Origin: an uncultured Prevotellaceae bacterium
GTDB taxonomy: Bacteria; Bacteroidota; Bacteroidia; Bacteroidales; Bacteroidaceae
NCBI GenBank assembly: GCA_947176895.1
Contig: CAMWSK010000008.1
Coordinates: forward strand, 1 to 64,000
Direction of reading: 5' to 3'
Length of the DNA stretch: 64,000 nucleotides
Position 1 is the stretch's first letter, and each line of letters opens with the position of its first letter. The notes under the pieces are model-generated. The model searched no databases and had not been told where the DNA came from. It saw nothing but the letters and a program-made list of their open reading frames with translations. The position numbers and the translations under genes were made by a program. Of this stretch, positions 15,960 to 40,241 are shown piece by piece.

Positions 15960-17450
15960 ATGAGGACAATTAAAATCGGGCGTTCACACACAAATGACTG
16001 TGTTTTGGACAATCAGACCGTGTCTCGGACTCACGCTGTCATTGACGTTGATGCTGACGAACAACGCGGAAGATTAAGGGATTTGAACTCGACACATGGC
16101 ACCTATGTGAACGGGAAGAGAATCACTGCAGAGGTAATGGTTTCGTGTTCGGATACCCTGCGTTTGGGGTCCGAGGTGATAACCCTTGGTGGAATTTTGG
16201 CCAAAGCCAACAAAACCGTCATTAGAAAAACGGATGCAGGCAGTCTGCCCGGAGTGGAGAGACGGACAATCGGAAAAAGCAGTGACAACAATATCATCCT
16301 GAATCATGACGATGTTTCCAGAAGGCATGCCATTATATATAGGGAAGCTAATGGAAATGTCGTGATTGAAGACCTCAATTCGACAAACGGCACCTATGTG
16401 AATGGGATTAAAATCACCAGCCAGGTCCTGCATGCCGGGGACAAGGTGGCCATAACCAGAAATTACAATTTGGCTTGGGAGAACATATTCAAACCCACGG
16501 CACCTTCTCCGACGTCTATGGTTCAAAAGTTAATGCGTGTGGCGGCAGTCGTTGTTGCCTGTCTTGTGCTTGGGGGAGGTGCGTACTATGGATACACACG
16601 TTTTTCCAAGTGGGACAAGGAAAAGATATACAAGGAGTATCATTCTGCCGTCTGCTGGGTTTATGTCCAATATGGATATAAGGTGTTTGTGGACAACGAA
16701 GACTTTACCCCGGTGTTGTGCCGTTGCACGAATATCGAGGACAAAGGTCTTGTTTACTTTGATGGAGATGATTTGCTGGCCGGTTCCACTGCATCCCAGG
16801 GTACAGCCTTTTTTATAAGCGACGATGGCAAGCTTGCTACAAACCTGCACATTTCAAGACCTTGGCTTTTCTCGGATGATAAAGAAAAATTGGAAGAACT
16901 TGCCAACAGACTGTTGGCCCTTTTGGCAACGCAAAATCCGATGCTGTCGAGAAGTAAGGTTGAAGTAAAATGTGTCCTGCAAGGCATGTATGTGGTTCCG
17001 GACGGACTTCCTGTCAGCGAATCCAATCTTGTCGAGTGCGAAGAAATAAAGGGACATGATGACACAAACAAGGATGTGGCTGTGCTTCAGACAAAAACAA
17101 GAAGGTTGCCCACCGGGGTCAAGAGAGTAATTGATATTAACGATTCCGATGCGAGCGAGGAGGCTCTGACAGAGGGAAGAACGCTTTTCACGATAGGATT
17201 CCCCTACGGAGCGAACATCGCGCAGGACAGCCGTCGGGATTTGAAGAACCAGGTTCATGGCGGTTCGGTCACTCAAAATAAAGGGGAATATGAATTTGGC
17301 CATGATGCGGAAACGGCGGGTGGCGCCAGCGGCTCCCCCATTTTAAATGATAAGGGCTGTCTTATCGGCGTGCACCATGCGGGAGTAACGGGGTCACAAG
17401 GTTTCAATTACGCTATCAAAGTAAAATATTTGATTGACTTGATAAAATAA
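15960..17450 (+). CDS. Double-FHA, single-TM, trypsin-like serine protease
   Basis: A 496-residue product. Two FHA domains (residues ~1-80 and ~98-180) carry the phosphothreonine-binding signature: KIGRSHTNDCVL...SRTHA...LNSTHGTYVNG, then TIGKSSDNNIIL...SRRHA...LNSTNGTYVNG. A TM helix follows at ~190-209 (RVAAVVVACLVLGGGAYYG), then a trypsin/S1C domain. Its triad is recognisable as His297 (NLHIS), Asp372 (NKDVAVLQ) and Ser457 (GGASGSP). The FHA part should be cytoplasmic and the protease periplasmic. It is the first gene of a phospho-signalling cassette, 26 bp before the next FHA gene. Kinase-dependent control of a periplasmic protease is inference from architecture. Confidence 0.85.
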   Translation: MRTIKIGRSHTNDCVLDNQTVSRTHAVIDVDADEQRGRLRDLNSTHGTYVNGKRITAEVMVSCSDTLRLGSEVITLGGILAKANKTVIRKTDAGSLPGVERRTIGKSSDNNIILNHDDVSRRHAIIYREANGNVVIEDLNSTNGTYVNGIKITSQVLHAGDKVAITRNYNLAWENIFKPTAPSPTSMVQKLMRVAAVVVACLVLGGGAYYGYTRFSKWDKEKIYKEYHSAVCWVYVQYGYKVFVDNEDFTPVLCRCTNIEDKGLVYFDGDDLLAGSTASQGTAFFISDDGKLATNLHISRPWLFSDDKEKLEELANRLLALLATQNPMLSRSKVEVKCVLQGMYVVPDGLPVSESNLVECEEIKGHDDTNKDVAVLQTKTRRLPTGVKRVIDINDSDASEEALTEGRTLFTIGFPYGANIAQDSRRDLKNQVHGGSVTQNKGEYEFGHDAETAGGASGSPILNDKGCLIGVHHAGVTGSQGFNYAIKVKYLIDLIK

Positions 17451-17476: not shown

Positions 17477-18052
17477 ATGGCAACAAAGAAATGTCCTAAC
17501 GGTCATCAGTATGACTCGGGTATCTATGGTGACAACTGCCCTTTCTGTCCCAGTGGACACACACATGTCAACAGCGGCACGGAATCTGAGACATGGGGCA
17601 CTGCGGGCAACGGTGGTATGAGCAATGAGACGGGTGCCACTATTCCACAGCCAGGCAATATGGGTAGCGGTGATACTACTTTTGGCTACCCCCTGAACGG
17701 AACAGATGCATCTAACTCTACCAGAGACCGGCGCGTCGTTGGTATCCTCGTTTCCTTTAGTGCTAATGAAGCTGGCGAGGTTTACAAGATTTACGAGGGT
17801 AGGAATATTATTGGCAGAGGCAATGAATGCGACATCCCGTTTCCCAATGACAACAATATGTCCCGTGAGCACTTGCTTATTCAATACATAGAGGCAAAGG
17901 GCGTATTTAGAGCCGTTGACAGAGGTTCTTCCAACGGCACATACATCAATGGCCAGGTTTGCGTGCTGGGTGATATCATAGAGATTAAGACCAATGATGT
18001 CATTGTGCTTGGAAGCACAAAGTTCATCTTCCTTGCCATTCCTCAATTTTAA
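17477..18052 (+). CDS. Zinc-ribbon FHA-domain protein
   Basis: A 191-residue, apparently cytoplasmic product. An N-terminal zinc ribbon (CPNGHQYDSGIYGDNCPFC, four cysteines at about 6, 20, 23 and neighbouring His) is followed by a ~65-residue Gly/Ser/Thr-rich linker. The linker has several Thr residues (GTGATIPQP-like, GDTTFGYP) that could be kinase targets. A C-terminal FHA domain (residues ~95-185) shows NIIGRGNECDIPF, SREHL and SSNGTYINGQ. Such ribbon-linker-FHA proteins commonly accompany PP2C/STK pairs in Bacteroidetes. It probably works as a soluble adaptor, phosphorylated in the linker and bound by other FHA domains. The 26-bp and 12-bp gaps to its neighbours indicate one operon. Confidence 0.82.
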   Translation: MATKKCPNGHQYDSGIYGDNCPFCPSGHTHVNSGTESETWGTAGNGGMSNETGATIPQPGNMGSGDTTFGYPLNGTDASNSTRDRRVVGILVSFSANEAGEVYKIYEGRNIIGRGNECDIPFPNDNNMSREHLLIQYIEAKGVFRAVDRGSSNGTYINGQVCVLGDIIEIKTNDVIVLGSTKFIFLAIPQF

Positions 18053-18064
18053 AGGGTCTGCGCC

Positions 18065-19756
18065 ATGAGTGATAATGCATATTTCTACTGCCACGTAGAA
18101 GGGAATACGGATGTCGGTTGCAAGCGAAAGGCCAATGAAGACTGGCTGGATTCGTTTGAGTGCGAAAACGGTCTTGTGGCAGTGGTTTGCGATGGCATGG
18201 GCGGCCATGTGGGCGGCCGGATTGCCTCGCATGTGGCCGTTGATGCAATCAGAAAATTCCTGAGTTCCCAATATATCCCGAATCCCAAGGATGCGATTGT
18301 CCAGGCTTGCCATGCCGCGAATGCAGCCATCTTGCAAAGAGCGTCGGAGCAACCGGAACTTACCGGCATGGGGTCGACATGCGTCATGTTGATTGTCAGG
18401 GACGGAAAAGTGTATATGGGTTCTGTGGGCGACAGCCGTATTTACCTTGTCAGGAGCAAGACGATACGGCAGCTCACCAAGGACCAAAGCTATGTGCAAA
18501 TGCTGGTGGATGCCGGCCAGATAACGCAGGAGCAGGCAGAGCGCCATCCCAGAAAGAACGAGATAACCAATGCGTTGGGACTCCACGGGATGCAACCGGC
18601 CACCGTCTTGGAAGACCCCATAAATCCTGAGGCGGGAGATTGTTTTGTTCTTTGCTCCGACGGGCTCAGCGGCATGGTTCCCGATCGTGAGATTGCAAAG
18701 GTGGTGGGCAACCAGATGGGCATGAGCCAGCAAGACCGTGTCAACACGTTGATTGACAAGGCACGCAGAAACGGAGGCCTGGATAATATAACCTGCCAGA
18801 TTGTGGAATTTGCCGTGACCCCTTCCGAAAGCGCAAAGCCGGTGGGTTTGAAAAAGCGGTTGATTAAGTATGGCTTGCCCGTTGTCGGCTCTCTTGTTCT
18901 TGTTTCTTGCCTTTCTTTATGGGCTTGGAACCATTTTCATCAGGAAGAAGGGGGGAAGAAGGAAAGCGGTCATGTGAAAGAGATGAGAGAAGTGGCTAAA
19001 TACATTTCATCGGAACCCGAAGACACAATAGTCTTTTCCCGTACGGCAGAGAAGGTCCTGGAAATCGAAGAGGTAACAGGCTTTGGACTCAGATTCTATG
19101 TTTACAATCAGGATGGAAGCGTTGATACAATCAACAAGAACAATCCTCTGTCTTTGTCGACCCTTTCTGTATATCCTGCCGATAGCCTGTCGTTGGAAAG
19201 AAAAGACAATCGTTGCTCCATTGCATTCAGGTGCCGCGATTACACGGAACCGGACATGACCGTAGAACTTAAGGATAAAGATGACAGCACGTATTGCTAT
19301 GTGTTTGCTGTTACCGGACCGATCAAACGCTCTGTTCCTTCCGGAAGCGGAACCGCGCTGTTCTCTCCAAGGACACTCGGAAAGAACCCTGATGAAGCTG
19401 GGCGGGTGCTGGTGGATATCACAACCCCCAAGGAGGATGAATCCGATGAAGGCGGGCAAAGTGATAAGGACACTCCCTTGTCCTATACCATACCAGTGGC
19501 TTCGTCCGAAGTGAAAACCATCACTTTATACAGTAACTTAGACGGAACAAATACGCAAACTGAAATTTACCTGAAAGACTATGCTTATGCCTTCAAGGCT
19601 GGCAAAAAAACAACCGTCTGGTATGAACTCACGAATGATGGAGCCAGGTGTGTCATTAAGATTAAGGGGGGAAAGATTCCCCCAAAGGACAATTTCATCG
19701 ACATCCCGACACAAGAAGAAGGCAAGGTAATCCGCTTGATTTTCCAAAGAAAATAA
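18065..19756 (+). CDS. PP2C-family protein phosphatase with TM anchor and C-terminal domain
   Basis: A 563-residue product. The PP2C (PPM) domain spans residues ~10-260, with metal-binding motifs KANEDW, VVCDGMGGHVGG, GSVGDSRIYLV, LCSDGLSG and the closing GGLDNITCQIVEF. A TM helix at ~268-285 (YGLPVVGSLVLVSCLSLWAW) separates it from a ~270-residue exported part, mostly beta-rich and unrecognised. It should dephosphorylate Ser/Thr residues in the cytoplasm, opposing the kinases encoded downstream. The exported tail may sense or bind something in the periplasm. The gene starts 12 bp after the FHA gene and ends 4 bp before the kinase gene. Confidence 0.9.
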   Translation: MSDNAYFYCHVEGNTDVGCKRKANEDWLDSFECENGLVAVVCDGMGGHVGGRIASHVAVDAIRKFLSSQYIPNPKDAIVQACHAANAAILQRASEQPELTGMGSTCVMLIVRDGKVYMGSVGDSRIYLVRSKTIRQLTKDQSYVQMLVDAGQITQEQAERHPRKNEITNALGLHGMQPATVLEDPINPEAGDCFVLCSDGLSGMVPDREIAKVVGNQMGMSQQDRVNTLIDKARRNGGLDNITCQIVEFAVTPSESAKPVGLKKRLIKYGLPVVGSLVLVSCLSLWAWNHFHQEEGGKKESGHVKEMREVAKYISSEPEDTIVFSRTAEKVLEIEEVTGFGLRFYVYNQDGSVDTINKNNPLSLSTLSVYPADSLSLERKDNRCSIAFRCRDYTEPDMTVELKDKDDSTYCYVFAVTGPIKRSVPSGSGTALFSPRTLGKNPDEAGRVLVDITTPKEDESDEGGQSDKDTPLSYTIPVASSEVKTITLYSNLDGTNTQTEIYLKDYAYAFKAGKKTTVWYELTNDGARCVIKIKGGKIPPKDNFIDIPTQEEGKVIRLIFQRK

Positions 19757-19760
19757 GGTT

Positions 19761-21089
19761 ATGCCATACACCCTAATAGAGGAAATAGGCCATGGCGGTA
19801 TGGGATGTGTCTATAAAGGAATGGATGCAAACGGCCGGAAAGTTGCCATAAAGATGATGAGCAACAAGGTGACCTGTTATCCGGAATACAGGCAGTTGTT
19901 TCAGTCCGAAGTAGACACGCTCAGGCGCATGGATCATCCTTCTGTCGTTCATATCGTCGGGGAACCCTATAAGGATGACAAGGGAAACTTGTATCTCCCG
20001 ATGGAATACGTTGAAGGCCGGACATTGGAGCAAAAGGTCAACGCCGAAGGCACGATTCCTATGGAGGAGGCTGTCAGCCTGATGTGCAAGATTCTCCAGG
20101 CCCTTCAATATGTGCACGACCGTAACCGGATTCATCGCGACATCAAGCCTTCGAACATCATGATTCGCCCGGACGGAAGTGTCTGTATAATAGATTTCGG
20201 CATTGCCAAGGATGCAAGGGTCGGAACGGGAAACACGGTGGGACGAATCATCGGGACGGATGGCTATATGAGTCCGGAGCAGGCAAACGGTCTGAACATC
20301 GACAGGCGGACGGACATTTATTCCTTGGGATGCGTGTTATATTACCTGCTGACAGGGAAACATGCCATTCCGAAAGGGCAAAATGATTATGAAACGATTT
20401 GCAGTATCCTGAAGAACATCCCGGCGTTGCCATCCCAGAGTGGCACAGGCGTATCCACGGCTTTGGACAACGTTTTCGTAAAGGCGGTTGACAAGAACAT
20501 GACCCTCCGCTACCAGACGGCGGCAGAATTTAAGGAGGCCATAGAGCAGGCTGTCGGAAGGGTCTCGCCAAGCGTATCGATTGGAAGATTGGAGAGTAGC
20601 AACATCGTCATCAGGAATGATGACGTCAGCCGGAAACATCTGGTCATTCGCGGCGTGGAACGGCCGATGACCGGTGGGGCGAAACAGTATTTTCTGGAAA
20701 TAGAAGATTTGGGAAGCAAAAACGGTACGGGAGTTAACGGAAGGTTGCTCAGGAGGGACATCTGCCGCATCGATTATGAAGGAACGGTGAATCTGCCCGA
20801 GGTCTTCCTGGCCGGCAAACCGGAACTGTCTGTAAACTGGCCCCAGGTGATGGCCATGTTGAGGTCAAAGGGGTGGAACCCGCAGGTATATAATCCGGAG
20901 AATCCGCCGGTAAAAAAAGAAGAATCGTTGCACTGGTTCTTGTGTGTCGTGAGCCTGGTTCCTTTGGTCGGTTGGGTCCTGTGGGGCGTTTATAAAGACG
21001 GGCATCCCCGGAAAGCCTCGCTTGCAGCCAAGTTGGCTTGGTCCGGCTTCTTGATAAATCTACTTTTGCTATTTGGCATGAGTTTATGA
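19761..21089 (+). CDS. Ser/Thr protein kinase with C-terminal FHA domain and two TM helices
   Basis: A 442-residue product with a complete Hanks-type kinase domain (residues ~3-265): glycine loop IGHGGMGCVYKG, VAIKMM lysine, HRDIKPSNIM catalytic loop, IIDFGIAKD, and activation segment ending GYMSPEQA. An FHA domain (~272-340: SIGRLESSNIVIRNDDVSRK, then GSKNGTGVNG) and a C-terminal two-helix membrane anchor follow. The FHA-linker-2TM part is homologous to most of the protein at 21297-21800. Having kinase and phosphopeptide reader on one chain suggests self-docking or recruitment of the phosphorylated FHA partner proteins. The 3' end runs into an IS982-like terminal sequence at 21078. Confidence 0.9.
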   Translation: MPYTLIEEIGHGGMGCVYKGMDANGRKVAIKMMSNKVTCYPEYRQLFQSEVDTLRRMDHPSVVHIVGEPYKDDKGNLYLPMEYVEGRTLEQKVNAEGTIPMEEAVSLMCKILQALQYVHDRNRIHRDIKPSNIMIRPDGSVCIIDFGIAKDARVGTGNTVGRIIGTDGYMSPEQANGLNIDRRTDIYSLGCVLYYLLTGKHAIPKGQNDYETICSILKNIPALPSQSGTGVSTALDNVFVKAVDKNMTLRYQTAAEFKEAIEQAVGRVSPSVSIGRLESSNIVIRNDDVSRKHLVIRGVERPMTGGAKQYFLEIEDLGSKNGTGVNGRLLRRDICRIDYEGTVNLPEVFLAGKPELSVNWPQVMAMLRSKGWNPQVYNPENPPVKKEESLHWFLCVVSLVPLVGWVLWGVYKDGHPRKASLAAKLAWSGFLINLLLLFGMSL

Positions 21090-21113
21090 AATCGGGATAA
21101 ATCAAGCTGTGTG
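21078..21113 (+). repeat. Decayed IS982-type left end
   Basis: The stretch resembles the left end of the IS982 remnant at 49020-49060: both have GAGTT, then GAA-TC-G-ATAA, then CAAGCTGTGTG. It overlaps the kinase stop codon. Confidence 0.4.
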
Positions 21114-21296: not shown

Positions 21297-21800
21297 ATGA
21301 AACCAACAATAACAATAGGACGAAGCAGTCATTGCGATATAATCATTCCCAATGGCAGTGTCAGCAGGGAGCATGCCCGTATGAGTATCGTCGGGGGCAA
21401 CTACGTTTACGAGGATGTCGGGAAAAACGGTTCGGTCATCGGAGGACGGGTCATACATGGTCAACGCATCACTGTTGCCGCAGGGGCGGAGATTCTCCTG
21501 GCCGGCAAGGTGCCCCTGCCTTGGGCACAGATATATGCGATGCTTCCGCTAAGGGGAGTAAGGCCTTATGATGGCGATACGCATTATGAACCGGTTCATA
21601 ATGATCCTCCGCAATACGTGTATGTCACAGACGAAAGCATAGGAGTGGGATATGGCATTCTTGCTTTCCTCATCCCTTTGGCCGGTTGGATCATGTATTT
21701 TGCGTGGAAAGACGATTCCCCGAAAAAAGCGTCCCAGGCCAACACGATTGCATGGGCCAGCTTTGTCATTAACCTCTTAGGAATCATTGCCGCACTTTAA
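21297..21800 (+). CDS. FHA-domain membrane protein with two TM helices
   Basis: A 167-residue product. I chose the ATG at 21297 because the FHA fold begins there (MKPTITIGRSSHCDIIIPNG); the upstream in-frame codons are palindromic repeat DNA. The phosphothreonine-binding residues are seen in IGRSSHCD, SREHARM and GKNGSVIGG. The C-terminus (FLIPLAGWIMYFAWKDDSPK, then a second helix) matches the C-terminus of the kinase upstream. The protein is probably an inner-membrane docking site for a phosphorylated partner. The last 14 bp precede the next kinase start. Confidence 0.78.
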   Translation: MKPTITIGRSSHCDIIIPNGSVSREHARMSIVGGNYVYEDVGKNGSVIGGRVIHGQRITVAAGAEILLAGKVPLPWAQIYAMLPLRGVRPYDGDTHYEPVHNDPPQYVYVTDESIGVGYGILAFLIPLAGWIMYFAWKDDSPKKASQANTIAWASFVINLLGIIAAL

Positions 21801-21813
21801 AATACAAATATTT

Positions 21814-24800
21814 ATGATTGGTAAGGAAGTATTAAACTATCGGATTGTCTCCCTGATTGGCAAGGGAGGAATGGGTTCTGTCTATCTTGCAGAGCACACG
21901 CTGATAAGAAACGAGAAAGTTGCCATTAAAGTCATTAATGCGAATATGGTCAATGACTTCACGCGTAACATGCTGAGGGATGAGGCCGAACATCTGGCTG
22001 CTTTGAACCATCCCAACATCGTTGCGTTCAAGAACTATCACATCGACAAATCGGGTAACATCTACCTGATTATGGAATATGCGGATGGACAAAGTCTGGA
22101 GGACTATATCAAGAATGTGAACGGCCTTATTGTTGAAGACAGGATATGCCCGTTGTTCGAGCCTGTTCTTGATGCCGTCGGCTACGCCCACAAGGGTTCC
22201 AAGACACGGAAAAAGATTCTGCACAGAGACATCAAGCCCGCGAATATCGTCATCACAACCGAGGGAATACCCAAAATCCTTGACTTTGGTATTGCGAAGG
22301 TGATAAAGAACCAGGGCGAGGAAGAGGCGGATTCGGTGGTCATGGGCACACCCTCGTATATGAGTCCTGAACAGGTGAGAGGGGAACACCTCGACGAAAG
22401 GTCTGATATCTATTCTCTTGGCGTGTTGCTGCATCACATGATGACGGGTAACCCTCCTTATGACACCACAACGCTCACAGAGCAGGAAATCAACACGAAG
22501 GTCGTGGAGGAACCGCTCCCGAGGATGAGGACCTACTATAAGTATGTATCCGAGAAGGTGCAGAAGATTGTGGATAAAGCCACGGCCAAGAATCCGGCAG
22601 ACCGCTACCAGTCATGCGAGGAGTTCAAGAAAGCGCTGCATAAGGCGATCTATCCCACTCGGATTCCCCAATGGGTAAAGGCTGCGGTAGCGGCAACGGT
22701 CATCCTGATTATGGGAGGGGGCTGGTATTTGTGGGACTACAACCGGATTAAAACCTATTATTATAAGGATTACGTCGAGCGTTGGGGTATTCCGGAAGGT
22801 ATCGGAGAACTGAGCTCAAGTGAGCATGGCCATATGCACCGGTCGTATAAGTTTGTCTATCAGAAAAGGAAACTGCTCCGGGTTTCGCATGTGAACAGCC
22901 TTGACTATCTGATTGACGATGACGAAAGCGAACGTAACGAACGGCCGATAGACCAGACTTTCTCTTATACGGCTGACGGCAAGGTGAGCCGCGTGAAGGT
23001 CATGGACCGCAGCGGCAAGACTCTTTACGTAAAGAGTTACAACGAAAAACTGAATACCATGGCATTCCAGTATGACGACGAACATGGCACCGAACGTGTC
23101 GTGTCTAATCAGACGGTTGGCTATGGCAGGCTTCTGGAGGACAATGCGGATGACCGCGGGCGTATCTCGCGGTGGTGGATTGATTATGATGAAAACGGAT
23201 ACGTGGCCACGGTCAGGTATGCGGGATTGGACAATTCGCCTGTTTGCGACGACAATGGAATCTATGGAAGAACGTATGTGCGCGATGCCAAGGGACGCGA
23301 GACGGAGATTCATTACATAGGAATAGACGGTGAGCCCATGGCCACCAAATGGGGTCTCGGCATAAAGAAGTTCCATTATGACGAGAAGAACAATTGGATA
23401 AAGGCCGAATACCTGACAGTCGACGGGGAAACGGCTTATGATGATACTGACGGTGTCGCTGTATATGTGATGGAGTATGACGAAAACGGAAACATTACCT
23501 ATGCCCTTCATCAGGACGGGGAGGGCAATGGCATGTTGCCCAAGAAAAGCCATGTTGCCGGTGTCCACAACGTATATGACGATAAAGGCTTTATCACTCG
23601 GATGGAATTTTTGGATGTTGACAGAAAGCCTATGTTTGTGAGAGGTTCGGGAGTTGCGATTGTCAAGAAAGAGTATGACGGGCATGGATATTTGTCGAAG
23701 TCGTCATTCTTTGATCCCGACGGAAATCCCACGGATTGCCAGGATGGCAACTCCGCCAATACGTTGGTGAACGATGAGCATGGAAATGTGCTTGAGGCGT
23801 GGTTCTATGGCAAGGATGGGAAGCTATGCGAGATTTCATCCGGCAGTGCCGGCATGAAGGCGGAGTATGACTCTGTCGGCAATCAAATCAAGGTGGTAAA
23901 CTACGGTACCGATAAACAGCCATGTGTGGGTAGCGATGGTACTTACGGAACATTGACCGAGTATGACGACCGTAATCTGGTGGTTAAAACCACATCCTTG
24001 GGCGCGGACTTACAGCCGGCTCCCGGCAATAACAACGTTATCATAGCGAAATATGATTACGACAAACGCGGTAATACCACAAAGGTCTCGTTCTATAATG
24101 CGGGTGACAGCATTTTGCGTCTTTCTCATGAAGGATGTGCGGGATGGAATGACATCTATGATGACAATGGGAATCATCTTGAAAGAAACTTCTTCGGGAC
24201 AGACGGCCAACCGATTCTTCCGGCGGGAATACATTATGCGAAGGTAAAATATACGTATGACGAGAACGGTAATCTGAAATCCTCCAGGTATTATAATTTG
24301 CAGGGTTCGTTGACTGCCGTAAACGGCGTTGCCGGAAGAGATTACAAGAATGACAAACGAGGGAATACATTGGAGGAAACCCCGATAGGCTCAAATGGCA
24401 AGTTGGCCGCCAACTATCTTATTACAAAGTACAAATATGATAAGTTCGACAATATAACGGAGATATCGCTATATGACGCTTCCGGAGCCGCGACTAATTC
24501 TACTGGCATCCATAAGTATGTATATGTGTATAACAGCCGCAATCAGGAAGTTGAAGAAAGCTACTATGGCACGAACGGTGCATTAGTTCTGTCCAACGAG
24601 ACAAAAACCGCCATCCTCAAGAATGAATATAATAGCAAGGGCGAACGTGTAAAGGCATTCTATTTCGGAACCGACCGCAAACCATGTAAATCAAAAGAGG
24701 GGTGGAGTAGCTCTACGTATGAATATGACGCTTTTGGCAATATTGTCAAACAATGTTTCTTTGGTGTAGACGGCAAACCGACAAATCCTGTTGATATGGT

Positions 24801-25611
24801 TCCGGTGGGCATAGCGAAATACGACAAGTGGGGTAATAAGATTTATATAGCAGCCCAGGATGGCCATGGTAAATTTATAAACCGTCCAAATGATAATTGG
24901 GCTATCAGCCGGAATGACTATGACAACAAGGGCAACAAGCTCTCACAGTCATATTACAATCCGCAGGACAAACCTACTTTGTCTTCTGACGGCTACCACA
25001 AAGTCAAATATGTTTATGATAATCAAAACAGAGAGACAGAGGCTTCATATTATGGTACAGACGGGAAACCTATACTTGTAAATAACTATCATAAGGAAAC
25101 TTACAAGTATGCGGAAAACTCAGATAAGATTATCGAGAACGCGATGTTTGACAAAACCGGAAAACCCGTGAATTGCTCGGGAGGGTGGCATAGACTGGTT
25201 GTTACATACAACGAGGATGGCAATATTGCGGAAACAAAGAAATATTATCTTGCAAATGGCACGTTGCTGGCAACACAGAAGTGGAACGGAGAAGAATGGG
25301 TTCTGGTGCAAAGAGAATACATTTGGCAAGAAGGTGCTCGTGAGCTTGCTGCCGAATTGCCATACCCTTGCGGAACGGACTCTTATGGCTTGACGGTTGA
25401 ATCCTTAACCATCACCGGCGAAAATTCATGTGAGTTGAAGTTTACATTCTCATACACAACCGGTCAGTTGAATGCTGATACCGTATCGAAGTTAAAGGAG
25501 GCCGTGAAAATGATGGTTGATGCGGTTGAAAGTGAATTGAGGCACAAGCCGTATGTGACAGGAAAACTTTATGACAGGAATGGGAAGATGGTCTTTTCCT
25601 ACAGGAAGTAG
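21814..25611 (+). CDS. Ser/Thr protein kinase with large exported YD-type repeat region
   Basis: A 1265-residue product. The kinase domain spans ~8-275 (LIGKGGMGSVYLAEH, VAIKVI, HRDIKPANIVI, ILDFGIAKV, SYMSPEQVRG). A TM helix is at ~287-306 (VAATVILIMGGGWYLWDY). The remaining ~950 residues are tandem ~45-55-residue repeats built on phrases such as YDENGNI, YYGTDGKP and FYGKDGK, like YD/RHS repeats. There is no RHS core or toxin-type C-terminus; the last ~80 residues form a distinct domain. I chose ATG 21814 since MIGKEVLNYRIVSLIG is the usual kinase start. The repeat region should be periplasmic or extracellular, giving a receptor-kinase layout. A strong terminator follows at 25638. Confidence 0.9.
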   Translation: MIGKEVLNYRIVSLIGKGGMGSVYLAEHTLIRNEKVAIKVINANMVNDFTRNMLRDEAEHLAALNHPNIVAFKNYHIDKSGNIYLIMEYADGQSLEDYIKNVNGLIVEDRICPLFEPVLDAVGYAHKGSKTRKKILHRDIKPANIVITTEGIPKILDFGIAKVIKNQGEEEADSVVMGTPSYMSPEQVRGEHLDERSDIYSLGVLLHHMMTGNPPYDTTTLTEQEINTKVVEEPLPRMRTYYKYVSEKVQKIVDKATAKNPADRYQSCEEFKKALHKAIYPTRIPQWVKAAVAATVILIMGGGWYLWDYNRIKTYYYKDYVERWGIPEGIGELSSSEHGHMHRSYKFVYQKRKLLRVSHVNSLDYLIDDDESERNERPIDQTFSYTADGKVSRVKVMDRSGKTLYVKSYNEKLNTMAFQYDDEHGTERVVSNQTVGYGRLLEDNADDRGRISRWWIDYDENGYVATVRYAGLDNSPVCDDNGIYGRTYVRDAKGRETEIHYIGIDGEPMATKWGLGIKKFHYDEKNNWIKAEYLTVDGETAYDDTDGVAVYVMEYDENGNITYALHQDGEGNGMLPKKSHVAGVHNVYDDKGFITRMEFLDVDRKPMFVRGSGVAIVKKEYDGHGYLSKSSFFDPDGNPTDCQDGNSANTLVNDEHGNVLEAWFYGKDGKLCEISSGSAGMKAEYDSVGNQIKVVNYGTDKQPCVGSDGTYGTLTEYDDRNLVVKTTSLGADLQPAPGNNNVIIAKYDYDKRGNTTKVSFYNAGDSILRLSHEGCAGWNDIYDDNGNHLERNFFGTDGQPILPAGIHYAKVKYTYDENGNLKSSRYYNLQGSLTAVNGVAGRDYKNDKRGNTLEETPIGSNGKLAANYLITKYKYDKFDNITEISLYDASGAATNSTGIHKYVYVYNSRNQEVEESYYGTNGALVLSNETKTAILKNEYNSKGERVKAFYFGTDRKPCKSKEGWSSSTYEYDAFGNIVKQCFFGVDGKPTNPVDMVPVGIAKYDKWGNKIYIAAQDGHGKFINRPNDNWAISRNDYDNKGNKLSQSYYNPQDKPTLSSDGYHKVKYVYDNQNRETEASYYGTDGKPILVNNYHKETYKYAENSDKIIENAMFDKTGKPVNCSGGWHRLVVTYNEDGNIAETKKYYLANGTLLATQKWNGEEWVLVQREYIWQEGARELAAELPYPCGTDSYGLTVESLTITGENSCELKFTFSYTTGQLNADTVSKLKEAVKMMVDAVESELRHKPYVTGKLYDRNGKMVFSYRK

Positions 25612-34747: not shown

Positions 34748-36580
34748 ATGAAGAATAAAGTATTCCTTGGCCTGCTGGCACCGTATAAGCGTTATGTTGT
34801 CGGAACGCTGACGATGAATATACTGGCAGCCCTGTTCAACGTAGTCAGTTTTACACTGCTGTTGCCCATCTTGCAGATTCTGTTCCGGGTGAACAACGAG
34901 GTGTATGATTTCATTCCTTGGGGCACAGGCGGGCTAAGCAACATCGTGGATGTGGGCAAGAACAACCTGTATTATTATTGTCAACAACTGATAGCCGTTT
35001 ACGGAGAAGTCACCACGCTTCTGCTTCTGGGGCTGGCCCTCTCTGCACTTACCTTTATCAAGACAGCCACCTATTTCGGAGGCAGCGCCCTTTTGATGCC
35101 GTTGCGTACGGGAGTGGTTCGCGACATACGAAGTTCGATTTATCGCAAGATTCTCTCTCTTCCATTAAGTTTCTTTTCTCAGGAGCGTAAAGGTGACATC
35201 CTCACCCGCGTGACTACGGATGTAAACGAAGTGGATGCTTCGGTCACGGCTTCGCTGGATATGCTGGTGAAGAACCCTATTTTCATTGTGGTCTATGTCA
35301 TCACCCTCATCACCATCTCGTGGCAATTGGCACTCTTCACCCTGCTTATCGTGCCCGTCCTGGCTTTGGGTATAGGAAGCATCGGCAAGCGCTTGAAGCA
35401 AAGATCCCTGCTTATGCAGAGCAGGTTGTCTGACAGCGTTTCGCAGATTGAAGAGACTTTGGGTGGTTTGCGCATCATCAAGGCGTTTATTGCCGAGGGG
35501 AAGATGCAAGAACGCTTTGACCGTGTCAACAATGAATACCGGCGTATAGCCTGTCGTGTGGCGATACGCCAGAGCGCAGCCCATCCCGTGAGCGAGTTCC
35601 TGGGCACGGTGATGATTGTCATTGTCCTTTGGTTTGGCGGATGGCTTATCTTTAACGGGAAGGCCGATATTGACGCCAACCTGTTCATCTATTATCTTGT
35701 CATTCTTTATACCACGTTGCAACCCATCAAAGAGATTTCGCGTGCGGGTTACGCTATCCAAAAGGGTATGGCATCGTTAGAGCGTATCCGGAAGATTCTG
35801 GATGCCGAGAATACGATTAAGGAGGCGGAGCATCCGCAGGCCGTCACAAGTTTGGAGAAAGACATCCAATTGCGTGATGTCAACTTCTCCTATTCCACGG
35901 GAGCACAGGTTCTTTTTGACATCAATCTCACCATCCGCAAGGGAGAAACCATTGCATTGGTAGGGCAGTCCGGTTCGGGTAAGAGCACGTTGGTGGACCT
36001 GATTCCCCGATACCATGATGTCACGGGAGGAAGCATTCTTATAGATGGTCATGATGTGCGTGACCTGAATATCAGGCAACTGCGCTCGCTTATCGGCAAT
36101 GTCAATCAGGAGGCCATTCTGTTCAACGATACCATTCGCAATAACATCGCTTTTGGCAAGCCCGATGCCACAGACGAAGAGATTCAAGCTGCCGCACGTA
36201 TCGCCAATGCCCATGATTTTATTATGCAAACCGAACAGGGCTACGATACGCTTGTTGGTGACCGGGGCGGTAAGCTTTCGGGCGGTCAGCGTCAACGCAT
36301 TTCCATAGCACGTGCGATATTGAAGAACCCTCCCATCCTTATTCTGGACGAAGCCACTTCCGCCCTTGACACCGAGAGCGAACGCCTGGTGCAGGAGGCC
36401 TTGGAACGGCTCATGTCATCCCGCACCACCATTGCCATCGCCCACCGGTTGAGCACCATCCGGAATGCTTCGTGTATCTATGTGCTGCACGAGGGACATG
36501 TTGTGGAGCAGGGCACCCACGACCGGCTCATCGCGCTCAACGGATATTACAAACGCCTTCACGACATGCAACAGCTATGA
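34748..36580 (+). CDS. ABC exporter, fused permease-ATPase (MsbA-like)
   Basis: A 610-residue half-transporter. I chose the ATG at 34748 (MKNKVFLGLLAPYKRYVVG), since the longer reading overlaps the RNase H-like gene. Six TM helices lie in residues ~15-330. The ATPase domain has Walker A GQSGSGKSTL, Q-loop NVNQEAILFND, signature LSGGQRQRIS, Walker B ILILDEATSALD and H-loop IAHRLST. The family flips lipids or lipid-linked glycans across the inner membrane, or exports other hydrophobic cargo. The stop overlaps the next start (ATGA), coupling it to two LTA-synthase-like genes and licD, so a surface-glycan precursor is a plausible substrate. Confidence 0.9.
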   Translation: MKNKVFLGLLAPYKRYVVGTLTMNILAALFNVVSFTLLLPILQILFRVNNEVYDFIPWGTGGLSNIVDVGKNNLYYYCQQLIAVYGEVTTLLLLGLALSALTFIKTATYFGGSALLMPLRTGVVRDIRSSIYRKILSLPLSFFSQERKGDILTRVTTDVNEVDASVTASLDMLVKNPIFIVVYVITLITISWQLALFTLLIVPVLALGIGSIGKRLKQRSLLMQSRLSDSVSQIEETLGGLRIIKAFIAEGKMQERFDRVNNEYRRIACRVAIRQSAAHPVSEFLGTVMIVIVLWFGGWLIFNGKADIDANLFIYYLVILYTTLQPIKEISRAGYAIQKGMASLERIRKILDAENTIKEAEHPQAVTSLEKDIQLRDVNFSYSTGAQVLFDINLTIRKGETIALVGQSGSGKSTLVDLIPRYHDVTGGSILIDGHDVRDLNIRQLRSLIGNVNQEAILFNDTIRNNIAFGKPDATDEEIQAAARIANAHDFIMQTEQGYDTLVGDRGGKLSGGQRQRISIARAILKNPPILILDEATSALDTESERLVQEALERLMSSRTTIAIAHRLSTIRNASCIYVLHEGHVVEQGTHDRLIALNGYYKRLHDMQQL

Positions 36581-38397
36581 AGTCATCACGTAAAACCTTT
36601 CTCGCCTCGTTATTCTTTTTTCTGCTCGTATGCTTCGGTTTGAGTAAAGTCGTTTTCATGCTCTACAACAGAGAGGTCGAGTCCATCGATTTCGTTGGGA
36701 TGCTGGGAGTGTGGTTGCGTGGTCTGCCCTTGGATATCCGCACGGCTTGCCTCTGTCTGCTTGTTCCTGCTCTCGTCAGTTTGCAGACACGCATCTCCTG
36801 GCGCCGTCTTCTTATTCCTTATTATATTGTTTTGGCTGTTTGCCTGGCTTGTCTCATCGCCGGAGACATCGTGATGTACGAGTTCTGGAAGTTCAAGCTC
36901 AATGCTGTGGTGCTCAGCTATGCCATGTCGCCCGAGGGAGCAACCAGCAGTGTTTCCACGTGGTTTCTGGTCAGCCGTCTCGGCACCACTCTCCTTTATT
37001 TTGCCGTTCTGCTATTCGGTTTCGTCTCCTTTACTCCCAAAGAGAAGAGGGTTAAGCCCAAAAGTTATAGCCGGCTCAAGCTCAAGAATCTGAAGCCTAT
37101 CATCAACTGGCGTCCCTACACGTGGCACATCTTTATCGTGCTTGTGGTGCTTCTTCCCATTGACATACGTTTTTGCTACCGTCAGGGCAACACGCTTATG
37201 CGCAATCATGCTGCCGTGAATCCTGTCTATGGCTTTGTGACGTCGTTTTGGGCACCTTCCACTTTTGACGTGATGCCTTCCGAAGAAGCTCATGAAGTGT
37301 TCCGGACGTTGTATGCTGACAACGATGGGGATGACATTCAGGATACGTTGCTCCGGAACCAACGTCCCAACATTCTGGTGATTCAGCTTGAAAGTTTCAG
37401 CGGGAAGTTTGTGAAAGAGTTGGGTGGAGAACCCAATGTCACGCCCCAACTTTCACGCCTTATTCCCCAAGGCGTCTGGTTCAGCAACTACTACAGCAAC
37501 TCGTTCCGCACAGACCGCGGCACGGTAAGTCTGCAGACCGGCCATACCGCCCATCCCACCGTGAGTTTGATGCGCGAAAAGAAGTATCACTCCATGCTGG
37601 CCTCGCTGCCCCGGGCTCTCAAGGATGCCGGTTACGAGACCTATTACCTGTATGCGGGTCCGATGACCAACATGGGAAAGAAGGACTTCGTCAGCCAGTT
37701 GCCCATAGACTCCATCTACGACAAGCACGATTTTACTCCCGAAGAACTTGAGACGGCTTGGGGCGCACACGACGGCACGGCGGCCTATAAGATGGTTTCC
37801 TGGCTTCAGGACATGGAAGCCGGAAAACCCTGGTATTTCACCTTTCAGACCATCTCCAGCCATGAGCCTTGGATAGTGCCTTATCATCGTCTCGCCGACG
37901 AGAAGCTGAACGCTTTTGCCTACACCGACGATGTGCTGGGTCAGCTGATCACCACGTTGCAGAACAGTCCGATATGGGATAACCTGTTGGTCATCATTAT
38001 CCCCGACCACGGCTTCCTATGGCATCAGACTTTTGAGGATCCCGAGTTCTTCCACAGTCCGATGCTTTGGCTTGGCGGAGCCGTCAAGAGCCCCGCCCAA
38101 GTGGATGTGCTCATGAACCAGAGCGATATTGCCGCAACCCTGTTGGCTCAGATGGGCTTGCCTCACAACGATTTCCGTTGGAGCCGTAATGTGCTCAGCA
38201 GGCAATACACCCATCCGGCCGTTTATTGCAATTATCCCGCAGGACTTTTGTTGCGCGACTCTACGGGTACCACCCTTTACGACATCACGGCCCGCAAGCC
38301 CATCACCCAGCAGCCCGCACCCTCGGAAGAGCGCATCCGCCGGGCGAGGGCCTTGCTCCAGGTTTCTTACGAAGAACTTCATAACGACAAAGAATGA
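36577..38397 (+). CDS. LTA synthase/phosphoglycerol transferase-like sulfatase-fold membrane enzyme
   Basis: A 606-residue product. Five TM helices fill residues ~8-215, followed by a periplasmic alkaline-phosphatase/sulfatase-fold domain. Metal and catalytic residues can be placed: Glu in VIQLESFSGKF, the Thr nucleophile in NSFRTDRGTVS, and Asp-His in IIIPDHGFLWH. Use of Thr instead of a formylglycine Cys/Ser distinguishes it from true sulfatases. Members move phosphoglycerol or phosphoethanolamine onto glycans or lipids. Gram-negative bacteria have no classical LTA, so the acceptor is probably a surface glycan or periplasmic glucan. Start and stop overlap both neighbours by ATGA. Confidence 0.85.
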   Translation: MKSSRKTFLASLFFFLLVCFGLSKVVFMLYNREVESIDFVGMLGVWLRGLPLDIRTACLCLLVPALVSLQTRISWRRLLIPYYIVLAVCLACLIAGDIVMYEFWKFKLNAVVLSYAMSPEGATSSVSTWFLVSRLGTTLLYFAVLLFGFVSFTPKEKRVKPKSYSRLKLKNLKPIINWRPYTWHIFIVLVVLLPIDIRFCYRQGNTLMRNHAAVNPVYGFVTSFWAPSTFDVMPSEEAHEVFRTLYADNDGDDIQDTLLRNQRPNILVIQLESFSGKFVKELGGEPNVTPQLSRLIPQGVWFSNYYSNSFRTDRGTVSLQTGHTAHPTVSLMREKKYHSMLASLPRALKDAGYETYYLYAGPMTNMGKKDFVSQLPIDSIYDKHDFTPEELETAWGAHDGTAAYKMVSWLQDMEAGKPWYFTFQTISSHEPWIVPYHRLADEKLNAFAYTDDVLGQLITTLQNSPIWDNLLVIIIPDHGFLWHQTFEDPEFFHSPMLWLGGAVKSPAQVDVLMNQSDIAATLLAQMGLPHNDFRWSRNVLSRQYTHPAVYCNYPAGLLLRDSTGTTLYDITARKPITQQPAPSEERIRRARALLQVSYEELHNDKE

Positions 38398-40241
38398 AAC
38401 AGCGTTTCGCGCACCTGCTGGCTGTGGCGGGTGTCTTTATCCTTGTATTTATCACGGGCAAGATAGCTTTCTTGGGGTGCAACAGCGACATCGCCCCCAC
38501 AACCTTGTCCGATGTGTGGCAAGTGGTGGTTCATGGCATGAGCATGGACCTCAGCACCACGGGTTATCTCATCATCATTCCTTGGCTTATCTTGGCTGTC
38601 AGCATCTGGTGGAAGCGAATGCCCGTTCGCCCGTTCCTTGTCACCTATTATATTATTGTCAGCATTATCGTTTCCGCCATACTGGTCGGCGACACCGTGA
38701 TGTACGGTTTCTGGAAAACCAAGCTTGATGCAACGGCCTTTTCCTATTTGGGTGAGGCTCAGGGAGCCACCAATTCGGTCAGCCTGTGGTTCATCATCGT
38801 TCGTCTTGCAGCATTCGTCCTGGTGGCTTATGTGATTGCCTTCCTGCTTGTTCATGTTACGAAGAAGAGTCTGATGCATGTGGGTGACGAGAACAAGCTG
38901 TCGGTGCGTTCTTCTGTAAAGAACAGCCTTCTTTGGCTTTTGATTGCGCCTTTCACCTTTCTGTTTATCCGAGGCGGGTGGGGAACCAGTTCGATGAATG
39001 TGGGGGTGGCCTACCACAGCTCAAGTCTTTTCCACAATCATGCAGCCATCAATCCGGCATTCGGCTTGCTCTACTCGATGATTAAGGACAACAACTATGC
39101 CGCCCAGTTCCAATACACCGATGCCGAAAAGGCCGAGGCTCTTACCCTTGAACTCTATGCTCAGCGTGGTGAGGACATCACCGATACGCTCCTCACCACC
39201 CAACGCCCCAACGTTCTTCTGGTGATGTTGGAGAGTTATGGCGCCCAGTTCATAAAGGAATTGGGGGGCGATGCCCGGGTGGCTCCGAATTTCTCCCGCC
39301 TCATTCCCGAGGGCATCTTTTGGGACAATCTGTGGAGCAACTCTTTCCGCACCGACCGAGGCTTCGTGTCGGGCTTCAGCGGGTGGCTCAGCTATCCCAC
39401 GGTATCGCTGATGCGTTTGCCCGGTTATTCCGACGGTCTGCCCTCCATTGCCCGTTCGCTTTCCGCACAAGGCTATTCCACCCACTTCCTTTATGGGGGC
39501 GACATCATGTTCCGGGGGAAGAACGGGTATCTGGTCACCACGGGTTATCAGCATATCATCAGTGATAAGGATTTCCCTCGCAGGCAGGCAGGCGAATCCA
39601 AGTGGGGCGTGAACGACAGGCTCACCGTGCAGCGCACCCTTGAGGAGGTGGAGCGCCTGAACCGGACGGAGCAGCCTTGGCACTTTGTCTTGCAGACGCT
39701 CAGCAGCCATGAGCCTTACGAGGTGCCCTACGACCGTCTTTCCGAGAAGATTCCCAATGCTTTTGCTTTCACGGATGATTGCATCGGCGAACTGGTGGAC
39801 GGGTTGAAGAACATGCCCGGATGGGAGAACCTTCTGGTTATCATCATGACGGACCATGGCAGCACCTACCGGCTCGGCTATCAGGATCCGGCCTTCTTCC
39901 GCGGTCCTCTCCTTTGGCTTGGCGGAGCCGTGCGCCAACCCCGCCGCATGCACGTCCTCATGAACCAAAGCGATGTTGCCGCCACCCTGTTGGCCCAGAT
40001 GGGTGTCTCCTCCGGGGATTTCCCTTGGAGCCGCAATGTGCTTAGCCGGAAATACACCTATCCGTTTACGTACAGCAGCTATTCCGAGGGCATCATCTTT
40101 CAGGACAGCACCGGCATCACGATTTATGACATTAAGGGGAACCGTCCCATTTACGAGCACCCCGACGCTTCTTCCGACCGCCTGACCAAGGCAAAGGCCA
40201 TCCTGCAAACCAGCTATCGGCAGCTGGGTAAACTGAAATAA
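38394..40241 (+). CDS. Second LTA synthase/phosphoglycerol transferase-like enzyme
   Basis: A 615-residue paralog of the preceding gene with the same layout: N-terminal TM helices (~8-200), then a periplasmic catalytic domain with LLVMLESYGAQFIKELGG, NSFRTDRGFVSG (Thr nucleophile) and IIMTDHGSTYR. Blocks such as VLMNQSD(I/V)AATLLAQMG are shared almost word for word between the two. Coupled tandem copies suggest either successive steps or different acceptors in one decoration pathway. It starts at ATGA overlapping the first copy and ends 11 bp before licD. Confidence 0.85.
   Translation: MKQRFAHLLAVAGVFILVFITGKIAFLGCNSDIAPTTLSDVWQVVVHGMSMDLSTTGYLIIIPWLILAVSIWWKRMPVRPFLVTYYIIVSIIVSAILVGDTVMYGFWKTKLDATAFSYLGEAQGATNSVSLWFIIVRLAAFVLVAYVIAFLLVHVTKKSLMHVGDENKLSVRSSVKNSLLWLLIAPFTFLFIRGGWGTSSMNVGVAYHSSSLFHNHAAINPAFGLLYSMIKDNNYAAQFQYTDAEKAEALTLELYAQRGEDITDTLLTTQRPNVLLVMLESYGAQFIKELGGDARVAPNFSRLIPEGIFWDNLWSNSFRTDRGFVSGFSGWLSYPTVSLMRLPGYSDGLPSIARSLSAQGYSTHFLYGGDIMFRGKNGYLVTTGYQHIISDKDFPRRQAGESKWGVNDRLTVQRTLEEVERLNRTEQPWHFVLQTLSSHEPYEVPYDRLSEKIPNAFAFTDDCIGELVDGLKNMPGWENLLVIIMTDHGSTYRLGYQDPAFFRGPLLWLGGAVRQPRRMHVLMNQSDVAATLLAQMGVSSGDFPWSRNVLSRKYTYPFTYSSYSEGIIFQDSTGITIYDIKGNRPIYEHPDASSDRLTKAKAILQTSYRQLGKLK

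Follow-up and report, generated by a model that had tools for sequence, protein, structure and literature searches.

The window (i.e., the whole stretch of 64,000 nucleotides [nt] analyzed here) carries six genes on its plus strand, in the order protease, Cys-rich FHA protein, PP2C phosphatase, kinase-FHA protein, FHA-transmembrane (TM) protein, and kinase with repeats. The cluster opens with a gene for a 496-amino-acid (aa) protein in which a pair of FHA domains is followed by one TM helix and a trypsin-fold protease (positions 15960 to 17450, ATG to stop). It is followed by genes for a 191-aa FHA protein (17477 to 18052), the Cys-rich N terminus of which (CPNGH...CPFC) by eye resembles a zinc ribbon; a 563-aa protein made up of a PP2C phosphatase, a TM segment, and a C-terminal domain (18065 to 19756); and a 442-aa Ser/Thr kinase with an FHA domain and a C-terminal TM segment (19761 to 21089). 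The last two genes encode a 166-aa FHA protein with C-terminal hydrophobic helices (21300 to 21800, counted from an ATG; the open reading frame as listed starts at a GTG at 21111) and a 1,264-aa Ser/Thr kinase (21817 to 25611, also counted from an ATG), in which a hydrophobic segment recognized by eye precedes approximately 900 aa of YD/GxDGxP-like repeats without a Pfam match. The phosphatase passed the cutoff of the Stp1/IreP model NF033484 (233.5 versus 230 bits), and both kinases have kept the HRD motif (HRDIKPSN and HRDIKPAN, respectively) and the DFG motif. Long regions extend beyond the hydrophobic segment in the phosphatase and in one of the kinases. The gaps among the first four genes measure 26, 12, and 4 nt. 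Because of this tight spacing and the common strand, we infer that the six genes are transcribed together, and they are referred to here as the operon. Elsewhere in the window, positions 36472 to 40241 hold two neighboring, similar membrane sulfatase-like genes (LTA synthase type by eye).

Architecture of the protease protein

The two FHA domains span approximately residues 1 to 76 (15960 to 16187) and 94 to 168 (16239 to 16463), the TM helix spans residues 191 to 213 (16530 to 16598), and the Trypsin_2 protease domain spans approximately residues 281 to 490 (16800 to 17429), all on the plus strand. The Pfam FHA profile (PF00498) matched in two stretches with 128.4 bits (cutoff, 20.7; best stretch, residues 103 to 165), and Trypsin_2 matched residues 281 to 471 with 45 bits (cutoff, 27.6). 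The sole hydropathy peak above 1.6 was the 19-residue window starting at residue 191. The predicted catalytic residues lie in the motifs TNLH (H297; codon, 16848 to 16850), KDVAVL (D372; 17073 to 17075), and GGASGSP (S457; 17328 to 17330). The domain content, the single TM helix, and the numbered triad given in a preliminary description of this DNA were thus recovered exactly in the 496-aa open reading frame by Pfam, hydropathy, and motif analyses. Two single-sequence AlphaFold models of the protein (i.e., without alignment input) had pLDDT values of 32.3 and 31.8, too low for the models to be of use.

By sequence, the protein is assigned to the S1/PA clan of peptidases, with a Trypsin_2 score above the cutoff and His, Asp, and Ser in the expected order. 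In alignments of the protease profile with the DegP-like protease 5y28 and exfoliative toxin A (1agj), TN.H,.DvAi, and GaSGSP each fell on the corresponding motif, in which the aligned residues are the catalytic ones of these two proteins. The stretch from Asp to Ser was significant in both alignments (i-Evalues of 6.8e-8 and 2.9e-9, respectively); the stretch with the His motif alone was not (0.42 and 15).

Relatives, gene neighborhoods, and phylogeny

The first search set comprised 61 genomes (the genome containing the window, 36 others of the genus, and 24 of the order). An end-to-end match of the whole protein was found in one other genome of this set (G014, 36%). The gene is patchy: of the 36 other genomes of the genus, the majority of them incomplete, 1 was found to carry it. 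The genes flanking the operon were present in 47 and 28, respectively, of 61 genomes of the genus, including the genome under study. Wherever both flanking genes were listed for another genome, they lay on separate contigs, and no empty site for the operon was found.

Broader searches with a three-protein profile covering the TM helix and protease (E value, 1e-15) yielded matches in 34 of 301 family genomes and 8 of 393 order genomes, and a 22-row profile yielded matches in 12 of 395 genomes of the phylum; these counts include the genome under study and relatives lacking FHA domains, and some genomes were drawn more than once. Neighborhoods were fetched for all 38 places of the family-level search and for the further genomes of the order- and phylum-level searches. 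One protein (L120 in G159) was not refound by the local profile and was placed in neither of the groups described below.

With the window protein included, 27 proteins had the same FHA-FHA-TM-protease order. They span six families as labeled by the tool (f1, f29, f79, f101, f111, and f136), of which f136 belongs to another class of the phylum. In one of them (L101), the start codon used gives a truncated first FHA domain. The protease regions (residues 281 to 490) of the FHA-bearing members were 24 to 56% identical to that of the window protein. A further homologue, aligned over 88% of the query at 28% identity, came from a record labeled as a Phocaeicola massiliensis plasmid. The stretch of this record that runs from its first FHA gene through the second gene past the protease agrees with L067 (in G140) in gene order and, within a residue, in gene lengths, and the record was therefore not counted as an extra locus. 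By this match, which was judged by eye, family f1 is probably Bacteroidaceae. Carriage on a mobile plasmid was rejected, as this sole plasmid homologue was typed as nonmobilizable. A phage origin was likewise rejected, no match having been found among 50,697 phage records, and the one HtrA-like gene given by the contig scan, from a Saccharibacteria genome, was taken as unrelated.

The complete His297/Asp372/Ser457 triad of the preliminary description proved to be a family property, being intact in all 27 FHA-bearing proteins. The three residues were also kept in each of 41 aligned proteins (26 FHA-bearing and 15 FHA-less), and they are among the 17 invariant columns of the 210 protease columns in a 21-row alignment. 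Given this conservation across members only 24 to 56% identical to the window protein, the triad is not a chance arrangement. The putative specificity pocket varies. His472 occurs in 4 of the 41 proteins (the window protein, L054, L055, and L056), which have Ser or Thr at position 452, and the other 37 have no His at position 472. In the window protein, His472 and Thr452 align with His184 and Thr164 of V8, the residues that read Glu at P1, and this copy is predicted to cut after Glu. Because of this variation, the substrates probably differ between clusters.

The neighborhoods connect the protease with phosphorylation. In all 27 FHA-bearing loci, PP2C and kinase genes share the strand of the protease gene, the PP2C gene at a distance of 584 to 1,007 nt and the kinase gene at no more than 2,358 nt. 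The searches for kinase, PP2C, and FHA genes used profiles derived from the domains encoded in the window itself, which a divergent kinase could escape, and by these profiles none of the three was detected near the protease gene in any of 26 relatives lacking FHA domains (fetched stretches, 10.9 to 19.9 kb). At least 7 kb was available on both sides in 20 of these 26 control loci, and less than 7 kb on one side in the remainder (L080, L083, L103, L113, L117, and L118). As judged from gene neighborhood, the link between the protease and phosphorylation is well supported (27/27).

Two layouts were recognized among the first 21 FHA-bearing loci. The window type, with the protease first and the kinase with repeats last, was represented by the window, L055, L060, L061, and L054 (in which the contig ends early). 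The longer type is exemplified by L062 (1341 to 7200), the one such locus scanned with Pfam, which adds a WG-repeat protein, an outer membrane barrel, a probable lipoprotein (called by eye, with LPAM_1 below its cutoff), an S41 protease, and a 416-aa protein without a match. This longer cluster is possibly an envelope-spanning device.

In a tree of the protease domain, one branch separated the FHA-bearing proteins (26 rows) from the FHA-less proteins (15 rows) with support of 97/95, and this split was present in 97% of the bootstrap trees. The tree leaves out L108 and the FHA-less loci fetched later, and it includes L083 as a long branch. As drawn at the midpoint, the FHA-less group adjoins the f136 proteins (89/89); this rooting was chosen for drawing and does not indicate the ancestral form. 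The FHA form is distributed over long branches, and its occurrence in this genome is no accidental fusion.

Membrane topology and FHA domains

The FHA-less relatives provide an independent view of where the protease domain is placed. A lipobox pattern was seen near the N terminus of 15 of the 26, and an N-terminal TM segment was seen in 3 (L072, L102, and L106). Two others (L115 and L119) are lipoprotein-like by eye, and one (L114) has an ambiguous N terminus. The remaining five are proteins of approximately 850 aa (L083 and L109 to L112), at the start of which neither a signal nor a TM segment was seen; they begin with MKQLI or MRQLV and have the protease domain at the C-terminal end. These sequences suggest that the protease domain is usually exported, the five larger relatives implying that the fold is not always so.

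In the window protein, approximately 190 residues of FHA sequence precede the TM helix without a signal peptide. Together with the export of FHA-less relatives, this makes an extracytoplasmic protease and cytoplasmic FHA domains well supported by sequence features, in agreement with the location initially claimed for the protease. The reverse topology, with the FHA domains outside and the protease in the cytoplasm, would be compatible with the five relatives lacking a visible export signal and with the charges flanking the window TM helix, which are net +2 on each side. We consider it very improbable given the lack of a signal peptide before the FHA domains, the lipobox or N-terminal TM segment in 18 of the 26 FHA-less relatives, and the fact that ligands of FHA domains are made by ATP-using kinases. 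The positive-inside rule was set aside as a proof of topology, with the equal charges in the window protein not being decisive; summed over 21 proteins, the net charges were +30 on the N side and +4 on the C side, a weak tendency in the right direction.

A second cluster of kinase, PP2C, and FHA genes in the same genome also argues against the reverse topology. This cluster (contig C13; L073, 4131 to 13366) contains no protease and encodes a vWA-TM-FHA protein with a signal-like start and an FHA domain beyond the TM segment. With such a start, the working domain would face outward and the FHA domain would lie in the cytoplasm. By eye, the C-terminal part of a kinase of this cluster is formylglycine type-like, and the start of its FHA protein (L073, 12743 to 13366) resembles the Cys-rich start of the protein encoded at 17477 to 18052.

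We next consider the residues with which the FHA domains would bind phosphothreonine. In FHA1 of Rad53, the phosphate and peptide contacts are made by an Arg in the G-R loop, the Ser of S-x-x-H, and the Asn of NG; we scored this set as R/K, S/T, and N. The first FHA domain of the window protein has R8 and S22 (as well as R23 and H25) but His46 at the Asn site, and the second has K106, S120, and N143 (as well as R121 and H123), with Lys in place of Arg. Asn occupies this site of the first domain in 24 of the 26 other family members, the exceptions being L101 (Ser) and L108 (His). Of the 27 proteins, 18 have the complete set in the first domain and 11 have it in the second; 21 have it in one domain or both, and 6 (L057, L058, L059, L066, L067, and L071) have it in neither.

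These six proteins, together with His46 and Lys106 in the window protein, are what might be expected if the FHA domains were tethers only, fixing the protease in a complex with FHA and kinase proteins independently of phosphate, so that proteolysis would not be regulated by phosphorylation. This explanation seems unlikely to us, since the contact set has been kept in at least one domain in 21 of the 27 proteins and a PP2C and a kinase accompany all 27.

Proposed role and comparison with known systems

On balance, we lean toward the view that the operon is a membrane phosphosignaling module with the protease as its output arm, in which docking of an FHA domain on a phosphorylated partner would bring about cutting outside. 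This reading draws on the triad conserved in 27/27 proteins, the PP2C and kinase genes at 27/27 loci compared with 0/26 for FHA-less relatives, the single branch between the two groups, the contact set kept in at least one FHA domain of 21/27 proteins, and the export signals of sister proteases. Weighing against it are the 6/27 proteins in which neither FHA domain has the set, His46 and Lys106 in the window protein, the His-motif stretch that does not align significantly by itself, and the five larger relatives without a visible export signal. The two Hanks-type kinases would write, the PP2C would erase, and the FHA proteins would read. The inner membrane would hold the protease protein, with the two FHA domains facing the cytoplasm and the S1-type protease domain facing the periplasm. 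Threonine phosphorylation of a kinase or an operon partner may allow an FHA domain to dock on it, which would gather the protease and the partner across the membrane. The gathered protease would then cut an extracytoplasmic substrate, most likely the outer domain of the partner or an envelope protein, and the PP2C would reverse the docking. The docking on phosphothreonine, the identity of the partner, and the substrate are steps that we infer as parts of the best explanation.

The preliminary description went further in proposing that cytoplasmic phosphorylation gates proteolysis across the membrane. Such gating may occur, and plain recruitment is as likely; recruitment and switching-on would look the same in sequence. 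We put forward only tentatively an inside-out switch, in which threonine phosphorylation read by the FHA domains would activate or aim a serine protease in the periplasm by way of a single chain that spans the membrane. With the same reserve, an old module of kinase, phosphatase, and FHA proteins, running parallel to its vWA-FHA versions, could have this chain as its dedicated output.

The signal might instead run from outside to inside. The protease would constantly sense or trim an envelope protein, and its state, passed inward, would alter the hold of the FHA domains on the kinase or phosphatase, as an analogy to DegS-type proteases, which start an inward signal. The long regions past the hydrophobic segments of the phosphatase and one kinase are possible substrates for such a device, the longer cluster of L062 adds the WG-repeat protein, outer membrane barrel, probable lipoprotein, and S41 protease, and the loss of contact residues from FHA domains would be of less consequence with constitutive docking. 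However, the window protein has no sensor domain such as PDZ up to an E value of 0.1, and direction cannot be read from sequence. We regard the outside-in explanation as improbable, much as we do the phosphate-independent tether, and return to the output-arm reading.

The threonine phosphorylation pathway of type VI secretion systems (T6SS; PpkA, PppA, and Fha/TagH) resembles the operon, as far as the accessible part of its description goes, in bringing together a kinase, a PP2C, and an FHA reader to drive an envelope process, and differs from it in having a secretion machine as output in place of a protease. Among the six operon proteins, the best match to the TagH model TIGR03354 (the protein encoded at 21300 to 21800) had 29.7 bits, compared with a cutoff of 120.25. 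The Fha/TagH reader is not known to carry a protease.

The KKP module likewise combines a PP2C with two kinases, of which one carries a fused FHA domain; in the accessible text of its description, the name is confined to clusters whose other kinase has a cold shock domain, prophages are given as the setting, and no protease is mentioned (PMC11341870). Pfam detected no cold shock domain in either kinase of the window, which places the operon outside KKP as so defined.

Conflict systems centered on GTPases or vWA proteins couple trypsin-like peptidases to signaling proteins, FHA domains being sporadic among their effectors, and one actinobacterial theme joins a kinase with a PP2C and a vWA protein; an FHA-TM-peptidase chain is not among the systems described in the accessible part of that survey (PMC7159879). 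Pfam searches of the six operon proteins gave no match to vWA, MoxR, or GAP1. At one FHA-less locus (L072, 7488 to 10512), a TM-protease gene adjoins a ParA/DO-GTPase1-like gene (DO-GTPase1, 22.6 bits; below the cutoff of 27), a neighborhood reminiscent of the GTPase-centered systems. Against the kinase models of PADLOC, both operon kinases scored high (up to 263.5 bits, for PD-T4-6), and only the trypsin part of the protease matched RT-Protease_XI (40.9 bits); the other three operon proteins had no PADLOC match at an E value of 1e-5. We read the kinase scores as kinase domain similarity and did not assign the operon to a defense system. A defense role is possible.

HtrA, DegP, and DegS are extracytoplasmic trypsin-fold proteases, some of which are membrane anchored and take part in signaling. 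The window protein shares with them an extracytoplasmic trypsin-fold protease but has FHA domains and no periplasmic sensor. Membership in HtrA was ruled out: Pfam detected no PDZ domain up to an E value of 0.1, the chain ends 25 residues past the Trypsin_2 match, and the best score with NCBIfam HtrA models was 31 of 450 bits, far below the cutoff. The catalytic core has V8/glutamyl endopeptidases, exfoliative toxins, and Spl proteases, together with DegP-like proteases, among its nearest sequence neighbors of solved structure. V8, the exfoliative toxins, and the Spl proteases are secreted and soluble.

No FHA-TM-protease protein appeared among the matches listed in titles and abstract starts of the open-license PMC literature, which is weak evidence of absence. 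The parts of the operon are of known kinds; within the limits of this search, a chain that connects cytoplasmic FHA domains with an outer protease and is encoded among kinase and phosphatase genes is undescribed. Our impression is that the roles of Hanks-type kinases in these bacteria have been little described, none of the papers listed for them addressing the matter by title, and the module would offer a concrete readout for them. Because writer, eraser, reader, and enzyme are encoded in one six-gene cluster, the idea is testable in one strain. Transmembrane proteases in bacterial signaling are known chiefly as outside-in devices; if the output-arm reading is true, a conserved chain with its readers inside and its protease outside would place periplasmic cutting under the control of a kinase.
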